This document shows, one piece after another, positions 1 to 2,889 of a DNA stretch of 55,297 bases. The translations under genes and the position numbers were made by a program. Source of the DNA: Holdemanella biformis DSM 3989 (GTDB lineage Bacteria > Bacillota_I > Bacilli_A > Erysipelotrichales > Erysipelotrichaceae); assembly GCF_000156655.1 (NCBI RefSeq), contig NZ_DS996841.1:598624-653920 (forward strand). Direction: 5' to 3'. Every line of letters begins with the position of its first letter. Position 1 is the stretch's first letter. The notes beneath the pieces were generated by a model. It ran no database searches and was not told the DNA's origin. It worked only from the letters and a program-made list of their open reading frames with translations.

Positions 1-1929
1 TTTAATTGCAGCTGTCAAAGGACGAATGTTAGTCAATTTTCTTGGAGTTAAGCTATCCATTTCCTGAATTGACATACGTTCTTTAACAACACGTTCCATA
101 CGAGATAAACCAATACGGAATTGGTTTTGAATCAATTCACCAACAGAACGAATACGACGGTTACCCAACATATCGATATCATCTGTTGTTCCTACACCTT
201 CCATAACATTTAAGCTATATGAGAAGAATGCATACATATCTGAAACTGTAATTGTATGTTTATTTGCGAATGGGTCATTTCCAGCAACACGTACTTCATC
301 CCCATTGTTATCAATAATATATACTTCTTGAACACATGCACCAATCAACCATGCCGTAATATCTTCGCTTAAAGCACGTTGCTTAACTTGTGTTTCAACA
401 TCACTATCGATGGCATCTGGACTTACACCAACCATATAACGGTTCGCAACTAATTCCATATCTGCATCAACAATATCTTCACCTTGCGCATTTGTTAAAC
501 GTCCAAGAGCATATAAACGTTGACCATAGTTAAATACAGAATCCATATTTTCGGCTGTTAATTTAACTGGTTGTGCAAACAATCCTGCAAAAATATCAAC
601 ATTTTCAACAACCTTTTGGATTGCTAAAACATCTTGTTCAGTTAATACTGTACCAGCATCTAAATATGCATCTTCCGTTTCCACATCACTAGCCAATACA
701 CGACCAATTAATCCTGTAGTCCAGCTTGTTGGAATTGAAACGATATCTTCTTCATGGAATTCTGAGCGGAATGGATAAGCGACACAATAAGTACCTTTCG
801 CTAATTCTTCACGCAATGCATTTCTTTCATCACGGTGAACCATTGTACCTTTTTCCATGAACACATTGCCATTTACATCAACAATATCATGAGCAAGGCT
901 CATACCATACATACGATCGATCGCATTTAATTTCTTGCGTAATTTATAACGGCCAGCCTTTGTCAAATCATAACGACGGTGATCAAAGAATTTAGCCTGC
1001 ATCAAAGTGATTGATCCATCTAATGTAGGAATTTCATCACTTCTCTGGTTTTCATAGAAAGAAAGTAAAGCTTCCTGCGTTGTTTTAACTTTATCGTTCA
1101 ATAAAGAATTTTCGATTTCTTCATATTTTCCAAAGAAGGCAGTGTACAACAACAAATACATATTCATGTATTCGCGATCTTCTGCATCTGTAGCTACATC
1201 AGACCAGTTACGTCCCATTGCACGTAAGAACGTTTCCATCATTGATGTATCATGAGTATCTTCATTTACCCCAATATTCAAAGACATACCTATAGCCTTG
1301 AATAAGATACTGAATAATACTTTACGACGACGGTCAATAGAAACGTTGATCAAACGTCCATTTGTAGTTTTCTTTTGCTCAGTCATGAACTCTAACCAAG
1401 TACCACGACTTGGAATTAATTCACAGCTAAAGTTTTGTTTACCAGTCTTTTCATCATAACTATCCGCAAAATATGCGCCAGGAGAACGTACGATCTGACT
1501 AACGATTACACGTTCTGCACCATTGATGATGAATGTACCAGTTTCTGTCATTAAAGGGAAATCCCCTAAATATACTTCTTCACTCTTAGTTACTACTTCC
1601 CCAGTTTCTGAGTCCGTAACTTCTAATTCCATATCTGCATATAGAGGTGCTGCAAAATTGCATTCTCTATACATAGATTCCTCAGCGTTATATTTTGGTT
1701 CTTCAAAATGATAACGTAAGAAATTTAAGCGAATGTTTTTTCCATAGTTTTCAATTGGATAGATTTCTTCAAATACTTCTTGGATACCTTGTTGCGTAAA
1801 CCATTTAAATGAATCTGTCTGGATTTCGACAAGATTAGGTAACTCTAATTTACCACTAACCTTTGAGTAATCTCGGCGGGAAGATTTTTTTCCACACGAG
1901 ACAATACGATATGCTTTGTTGTTGTCCAT
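1..1929 (-). CDS. rpoB: RNA polymerase beta subunit, N-terminal 643 residues (runs off left edge)
   Basis: Catalytic beta subunit of RNA polymerase. The open frame starts at the ATG at 1929 and is uninterrupted to base 1, where it reads ...[10 protein letters not shown] just before the rifampicin-resistance region. Recognisable family signatures are [11 protein letters not shown] near the N-terminus, [18 protein letters not shown] (about residues 130-147), [26 protein letters not shown] and [19 protein letters not shown]. The ATG at 1929 is chosen because an AAAGG box lies nine bases upstream; an in-frame ATG at 1938 abuts that box. The AAIK motif falls at residue 643, about 180 residues later than in B. 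subtilis RpoB (Q469 lies ten residues after it there), so the lobe region is enlarged. Normally rplL precedes rpoB in an operon; here rpoB has its own promoter and a divergent neighbour. Confidence 0.97.
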
Positions 1930-1967
1930 GCATGCCATCCTTTCGTTCGAATTTGTACTATATTAGG

Positions 1968-1987
1968 AAGTTTTCATTCGAAAACTT
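1968..1987 (-). promoter_or_regulatory. Inverted repeat in the rpoB 5' untranslated region
   Basis: A perfect 8-bp inverted repeat (AAGTTTTC, 4-base loop, GAAAACTT) lies between the predicted rpoB -10 box and its ribosome binding site. It has no U-tract, so it is not a terminator. It could be an operator or an mRNA-stabilising or translational-control hairpin; the role is unknown. Confidence 0.5.
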
Positions 1988-2004
1988 ACACTATTATGCA
2001 ATTT

Positions 2005-2036
2005 ATTATACTACTAGTAAAACCACCAAATGTCAA
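2005..2036 (-). promoter_or_regulatory. Predicted rpoB promoter
   Basis: On the minus strand a perfect TTGACA (2036-2031) is followed by a perfect TATAAT (2010-2005). The spacer is 20 bases, longer than the ideal 17; with a 17-base spacer the -10 would be TAGTAT (2013-2008). The -35 box is one arm of a TGTCAAG/CTTGACA palindrome whose other arm is the -35 of a plus-strand promoter. Confidence 0.65.
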
Positions 2037-2043
2037 GAAAAAC

Positions 2044-2072
2044 TTGACAAAACTATAAAAATGGGTTATAAA
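2044..2072 (+). promoter_or_regulatory. Predicted plus-strand promoter upstream of an early terminator
   Basis: TTGACA (2044-2049), a 17-base spacer and TATAAA (2067-2072) form a near-consensus sigma-A promoter pointing right. The transcript would start near 2079 and meet the terminator hairpin at 2091-2118 after only about 12 bases. It could make a roughly 40-nt RNA or act as an attenuated promoter for the lipoprotein gene. Confidence 0.5.
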
Positions 2073-2090
2073 TATTGCCTATCCTTTTTT

Positions 2091-2118
2091 AGCACCTTCA
2101 CAAATTAGGTGCTTTTTT
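2091..2118 (+). terminator. Intrinsic terminator on the plus strand with no plus-strand gene before it
   Basis: AGCACCT (2091-2097) pairs with AGGTGCT (2107-2113) across a 9-base loop and is followed by six T residues. Read on the minus strand there is no T-run. No gene on the plus strand ends upstream, so it appears to terminate only the transcript from the promoter at 2044-2072. Confidence 0.65.
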
Positions 2119-2129
2119 ATTTGTCCATT

Positions 2130-2158
2130 TTGACAACCCATATATTTATGCATACAAT
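2130..2158 (+). promoter_or_regulatory. Predicted promoter of the small lipoprotein gene
   Basis: TTGACA (2130-2135), 17-base spacer, TACAAT (2153-2158). It lies just after the terminator and 24 bases before the lipoprotein ATG at 2182. Confidence 0.75.
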
Positions 2159-2181: not shown

Positions 2182-2889
2182 ATGAAAAAAATATTAACTA
2201 TAATCTTAACTTGTTTTTTATCACTTAACCTTGCAGGATGCTCGGCCTCAAAAAACAATGACGATATCCTTGCATTCTTCAATGCATTAGATAATACACT
2301 AAATTTAAAAAGTGCCCAAATCAATGGAACACTTGCAATGAAAGATTCAAAATTAAATATTGATGCACAAATTCTTCAAAAAGACGAATTACAGGTTTCT
2401 AGTTCCATTGGTCTTGTCGCAGGAAAAAATGTGCAAAATAACTTTTTGAACTTCTATATCAAAGATGGAAAAACATATTTAAATTCCATGGGAACAAAAA
2501 CACAAAGTACAGTCGATAAAATTGGGTTAAAAAAGAATTCAAAATTAAATGCATACAACCCATTTCTAGATTTAACCGACGATCAATTATGTGAATTGTT
2601 TGATTCTTCTAAAAAAGAAAATGACACCTACACATTTAAAGTCAATACAAGCAAATTAGCAACACTACTCGATAACATGGGATCCGTTAAACTAGATCAT
2701 GCTACACTTGTTGCAACCATCAAAAACGAAAAAATCTCACATATGATTTTAAGCTTTACCGGAACACAAACCGTTGATGATGCGAGTGCTGATATTGATG
2801 TTTCAATTGAACTAAGTATCAAAAAACTAAACAAAATCAACTTCCCAAACGATTTAGACAATTATAAAAACGAAACTGCAGAAGATTAA
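2182..2889 (+). CDS. Predicted lipoprotein of unknown function, 235 aa
   Basis: The N-terminus is a lipoprotein signal: MKK, a hydrophobic stretch and lipobox LAGC with the acceptor Cys at about residue 20, so the mature protein should be anchored on the outer face of the membrane. The rest is hydrophilic and lysine-, aspartate- and asparagine-rich, with no motif I recognise. The pattern of alternating strands with phrases such as NGTLAMKDSKLNIDAQI and FYIKDGKTYLNSMG loosely resembles small beta-rich surface lipoproteins of the LolA/LppX or DUF6612-like type, but this is only an impression. AAAGGAG lies seven bases before the ATG. It is monocistronic, with its own promoter and a terminator after the stop codon. 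Confidence 0.85.
   Translation: MKKILTIILTCFLSLNLAGCSASKNNDDILAFFNALDNTLNLKSAQINGTLAMKDSKLNIDAQILQKDELQVSSSIGLVAGKNVQNNFLNFYIKDGKTYLNSMGTKTQSTVDKIGLKKNSKLNAYNPFLDLTDDQLCELFDSSKKENDTYTFKVNTSKLATLLDNMGSVKLDHATLVATIKNEKISHMILSFTGTQTVDDASADIDVSIELSIKKLNKINFPNDLDNYKNETAED

Follow-up and report, generated by a model that had tools for sequence, protein, structure and literature searches.

What might a second promoter-like site do when it stands back to back with the promoter of an essential gene and points away from it, toward a terminator? The 55,297-nucleotide stretch of Holdemanella biformis DNA that we analyzed (the window) raises this question at its left end, where the gene order is rpoB (minus strand, partial), a divergent lipoprotein gene, an acyltransferase gene and a serine dehydratase gene. 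A first-pass annotation had described a palindrome upstream of rpoB that supplies the -35 boxes of two divergent promoters, and had suggested that the rightward one makes a tiny RNA or competes for polymerase and so tunes rpoB. We regard the observation as mildly unusual, and its explanation as likely to be ordinary and not a novel type of regulator.

Anatomy of the region between rpoB and the lipoprotein gene

The features, in window coordinates, are these:
2008-2036, minus strand: rpoB promoter, with -35 TTGACA (2036-2031), a 17-base spacer and -10 TAGTAT (2013-2008); predicted start at about 2001
2031-2049, no strand: inverted repeat TGTCAAG-AAAAA-CTTGACA, containing both -35 boxes
2044-2072, plus strand: rightward promoter-like site TTGACA-17-TATAAA, matching at 11 of 12 positions (-35 at 2044-2049, -10 at 2067-2072)
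2079-2118, plus strand: predicted terminated RNA of about 40 bases, from the promoter-terminator spacing
2091-2118, plus strand: intrinsic terminator with a 7-pair stem, a 9-base loop and six T, rightward only
2130-2158, plus strand: lipoprotein gene promoter TTGACA-17-TACAAT, a second 11/12 site, after the terminator
2182-2889, plus strand: lipoprotein gene, 235 amino acids, identified as a lipoprotein by visual inspection of its N-terminus

The palindrome can be read directly at 2031-2049 with its two divergent -35 boxes seven bases apart, and the assignment of its left arm to rpoB agrees well with the relatives, in which the minus-strand promoter has the same layout. By sequence the locus belongs among back-to-back divergent promoter pairs, having a sigma-70-type promoter on each strand and the two -35 boxes adjacent. 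From base composition, TTGACA would be matched perfectly at any of ten offsets with a probability of about 0.003. The palindrome by itself is unremarkable, because an inverted repeat with arms of 7 bases or more and a loop of 3-10 turns up in 29.6% of sequences when the 243-nt intergenic region is dinucleotide-shuffled 2000 times. It is single-copy in the genome in a search allowing up to two mismatches. A repeated element was considered and rejected: 2030-2130 has no second genomic copy, and the next best matches reach E 0.06 over 17-35 bases.

The rightward site is present as first described, with a predicted start at about 2079-2081. What the earlier description had not weighed is that its -10 box lacks the final T, a base important for promoter function, and the promoter may therefore be weaker than its score. 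A stock promoter scan that demands this T does not list the site. Of the 2000 shuffles, 1.3% have a plus-strand promoter matching at 11 or more of 12 positions and none has a pair of them; the window has such a pair.

The claim of a good terminator about 12 bases past the rightward start is borne out by the hairpin AGCACCT-9-AGGTGCT at 2091-2113 and the six T at 2113-2118. The RNA from 2079 to 2122 folds at -9.7 kcal/mol (z -4.4), better than every one of 200 shuffles. The terminator is one-directional, since the opposite strand has A after the stem, and its 9-base loop keeps it off the list of a stock terminator rule that accepts loops of up to 8. Past it, the lipoprotein gene does have its own promoter, as had been annotated, together with a ribosome-binding site at 2170-2175 and an ATG at 2182. 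An attenuator or riboswitch leader of this gene was rejected as a candidate, with no Rfam match and a fold that is the terminator alone. The region 1800-2300 has nothing near an Rfam gathering score, only weak chance-level matches, and across the whole window tRNAs alone reach it. The lipoprotein itself (2182-2889) has no match in Pfam or NCBIfam; relatives of it occur in 36 of 195 family genomes and lie divergent from rpoB within 3 kb in 6 of 20 loci inspected.

The rpoB side has features of its own. Two in-frame ATG codons stand at 1938 and 1929 (1927-1938, minus strand), and translation probably starts at 1929, because this codon has the better-placed ribosome-binding site and the one at 1938 is absent in some relatives (L067, L075). 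Directly 3' of the rpoB -10 box lies AATAAATTGCATAATA (1992-2007, minus strand), which covers the predicted start site, is near-invariant in much of the family and exceeds the needs of a plain promoter. The leaders that follow (1939-2003, minus strand, and relatives; 59 leaders) fold better than shuffles, with a mean z of -2.3, and an outer stem enclosing a G-rich/C-rich inner hairpin is found in 49 of 59 leaders versus 505 of 1180 shuffles. The stem sequences vary (GTCTAAA/TTTAGAC, GTCGAA/TTCGAC, TACTAAA/TTTAGTA). Against Rfam, none of the leaders reaches a gathering score (20 loci) or comes near one (4 loci), and RNAalifold on plain MAFFT alignments, which were poor, gives no good shared stem, contrary to the per-sequence folds. 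It is possible, on these predicted folds, that the rpoB leaders represent an undescribed leader RNA.

Rarity in the genome and occurrence in relatives

We surveyed 455,297 bases, made up of the window and 20 stretches from a single contig; a simple open-frame rule that may miss small genes called 425 genes in them. Among 34 promoter-like sites matching at 11 or more of 12 positions, only two lack the last T of the -10 box, the rightward site and one that is intragenic. Terminator-like sites number 211, and they occur in 7 of 40 divergent intergenic regions, in one case behind a tRNA. A promoter of at least 11/12 followed by a terminator in the same direction is found in one of the 40 divergent regions, the window's alone. 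The combination of a strong rightward match with an orphan rightward terminator is thus unusual in this set.

Upstream regions of rpoB were compared in 95 cases (the window, 29 loci, 5 further loci and 60 stretches). The rpoB promoter was recognized by rule in 64 distinct regions; 2 were duplicates and 29 were unrecognized, although by eye a promoter looks to be present in at least four of these (L026, L206, L209, L212). Its usual form in relatives is TTGACA-17-TANNAT, then AATAAATTGCATAATA or a variant. Much of the family shares the rpoB promoter but not the rightward unit; the full unit is absent from most relatives examined. At offsets 6-8, 6 of the 64 regions carry a rightward site matching at 9 or more of 12 positions, versus 0.385 in shuffles (maximum 3 in 200), and 4 carry one of at least 10/12, versus 0.08; this excess is a lead rather than a test, since these offsets were picked after seeing the window. 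The six carriers are the window, Holdemanella porci, two g55 genomes, one g29 and one g2. When the last T of the -10 box is required, 3 (at least 9/12) and 2 (at least 10/12) of the 64 remain, and Holdemanella is absent. Because 58 of the 64 relatives with the same rpoB promoter have no such site there, the rightward site stands outside the conserved control of rpoB. In 49 of the 60 stretches, a reading frame on the rpoB strand stays open across 200 bases or more until it reaches the promoter or start region, a pattern that fits a co-directional upstream gene and leaves no room for a rightward unit there.

Looser arrangements do recur. Both g55 genomes have a rightward site followed by a hairpin and a T run, from which RNAs of about 62 and 80 bases are predicted; these hairpins (at least in M10-2 and OPF54) may be bidirectional terminators, because an upstream rpoB-facing gene ends there. 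Under a stricter rule, a rightward terminator-like site lies within 220 bases in 6 of 35 regions (the window, L013, L022, L079, L080 and L081). Upstream of this terminator-like site is a rightward site of 10/12 in L081 and of 9/12 in L080, so that promoter-terminator pairs of a looser kind occur outside the window as well. In the g2 genome G058 the lipoprotein and rpoB genes are divergent, about 250 bases apart, with a 9/12 rightward site at offset 6 and no rightward terminator-like site in the rpoB upstream region. Open frames upstream of rpoB were checked for gene remnants in 20 of 58 loci (of the rest, 36 come from distant groups and 2 repeat a single contig). The upstream neighbors differ between genera, and origin of the unit as the remnant of a deleted gene consequently gains no support and loses none. 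As a separate observation, one genome (G111; L012, L217, L218) has three equal-score rpoB matches 71,006 bases apart on one contig, reflecting either tandem duplication or assembly error.

Within the genus the comparison rests on two genomes, the H. biformis window and H. porci, in which 148 of 161 aligned bases are identical from the rpoB start to 2096. The rightward hexamers have 0 changes in 12 bases, the spacer 4 in 17 and the following 18 bases 1. Unchanged hexamers beside a changed spacer would fit a working rightward promoter, although at 8% divergence the chance of 0/12 hexamer changes is about 0.37, so that unchanged hexamers alone are expected often. Pooling the Holdemanella and g55 pairs gives 2/24 changed hexamer bases and 11/34 changed spacer bases (one-sided Fisher 0.029, a post hoc test on closely related pairs). 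One palindrome arm base outside the hexamers is changed, leaving arms of 6 instead of 7. The H. porci alignment ends inside the 5' arm of the terminator stem, where an IS1634-family transposase gene follows, and its lipoprotein gene matches from residue 95 onward, at the edge of another contig; because of this interruption and the contig edge, the comparison excludes the terminator and the downstream gene. An apparent transposase end, judged by eye, precedes the lipoprotein fragment, and the two H. porci loci (L078 1-1200; L003 1-140) perhaps reflect an insertion plus an adjacent deletion.

Possible roles of the rightward promoter

The account that we tentatively prefer, and to which we give slightly less than an even chance, is a dead-end rightward promoter of weak to moderate strength, mutually exclusive with that of rpoB, whose terminator insulates the lipoprotein gene. 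The locus would comprise two back-to-back housekeeping-sigma promoters, the left one being the true rpoB promoter and the right one a genus-level addition, probably weak to moderate, in the AT-rich DNA upstream of it. Polymerase starting rightward would make an RNA of about 40 bases and end at the intrinsic terminator, which would stop that start from feeding a lipoprotein gene with its own promoter. Some loss of rpoB initiation is physically expected, and is probably small, because the -35 boxes are too close for joint occupancy. If the rightward promoter is active, rpoB faces a futile promoter drawing on the same polymerase pool, and the locus is a simple natural experiment in how promoters compete at an essential gene. 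Literature on Holdemanella transcription starts yielded nothing relevant, judged by title.

Less probable, and in our view unlikely, is that the rightward site is inactive, a chance product of AT-rich DNA, with the terminator either a remnant or a stop for stray rpoB antisense transcription. The missing final T of TATAAA, the ordinary length of the palindrome among shuffles and the 58 of 64 relatives with no 9/12 rightward site at offsets 6-8 all fit this explanation. The scarcity of an 11/12 plus-strand match in shuffles (just 1.3%) argues against it, as do the H. porci hexamers, unchanged beside a changed spacer. If it is correct, the region would neatly illustrate how a promoter-like site and an orphan terminator can adjoin an essential gene.

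Tuning of rpoB by the rightward promoter, as had first been proposed, is possible; that competition at the shared -35 region does so measurably, with the rightward promoter as a polymerase decoy, we consider distinctly unlikely. Boxes seven bases apart would make binding mutually exclusive, and sites of at least 9/12 are in excess among relatives (6/64 versus 0.385, at offsets chosen post hoc), yet with the final T required this falls to 3/64 and Holdemanella is lost. One report describes competition at E. coli bidirectional promoters when one side is strong (PMC12825309), but also basal activity too low for it at all five promoters tested, and the promoters described there differ in geometry from ours.

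It is improbable that the rightward promoter serves as a second, attenuated lipoprotein promoter through partial terminator read-through. The gene is on the same strand, 109 bases past the -10 box, and natural terminators leak. However, the gene has a better-formed promoter downstream of the terminator, a leader of about 12 bases offers no competing antiterminator, and the leader of a read-through transcript would, by prediction, pair with the lipoprotein gene's own ribosome-binding site; nor was an Rfam leader found in 1800-2300 or in the whole window.

It is very improbable that the predicted RNA is a functional small RNA acting on the rpoB ribosome-binding region by base pairing. The 13 free 5' bases of the predicted RNA could form 10 contiguous pairs with rpoB at -11.5 kcal/mol, ranking fifth (tied) of 409 gene starts, a pairing that we give little weight because most of it involves the generic AAAGGA. 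Four unrelated genes have better-scoring starts, the lipoprotein start is unexceptional (-6.7 versus a mean of -6.0), and the arrangement has been seen in one genus only. It is tempting to speculate that the free end, CUAUCCUUUU, base-pairs to the rpoB mRNA at its ribosome-binding region, such that the palindrome takes polymerase while the RNA lowers rpoB translation; we give this combination equally little credence. Were it true, palindrome and RNA together would sense free RNA polymerase and exert feedback at the polymerase's own gene.

Least probable of all is a palindrome acting as operator of a DNA-binding regulator, for which the perfect 7-base arms across two -35 boxes and a mild excess of a relaxed core with one mismatch (13 versus 6 for the reversed control in the same genome, 17 versus 3 in H. 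porci) count less than its single copy at up to two mismatches and the H. porci change in an arm base outside the kept hexamers, which fits -35 boxes better.

Comparison with known systems

Some small trans-acting RNAs of Gram-positive bacteria mask ribosome-binding sites. The RNA predicted here would resemble them in having its own promoter, an intrinsic terminator and a C/U-rich free 5' end, and differ in being very short and seen in one genus only.

Back-to-back divergent housekeeping-sigma promoters with neighboring -35 boxes are a known general class. The window shares with that class a consensus-like pair in opposite directions, with -35 boxes here seven bases apart. It differs in that its rightward arm reaches no gene and meets a terminator about 12 bases on.

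The bidirectional promoters described by Warman, Grainger and colleagues (PMC12825309) share or overlap their -10 elements, with starts mostly 10-23 bases apart. Assignment to that type was rejected, since the window has separate -10 boxes (2013-2008 and 2067-2072), with predicted starts about 78 bases apart. Common to both would be divergent starts from symmetric sequence and steric exclusion.
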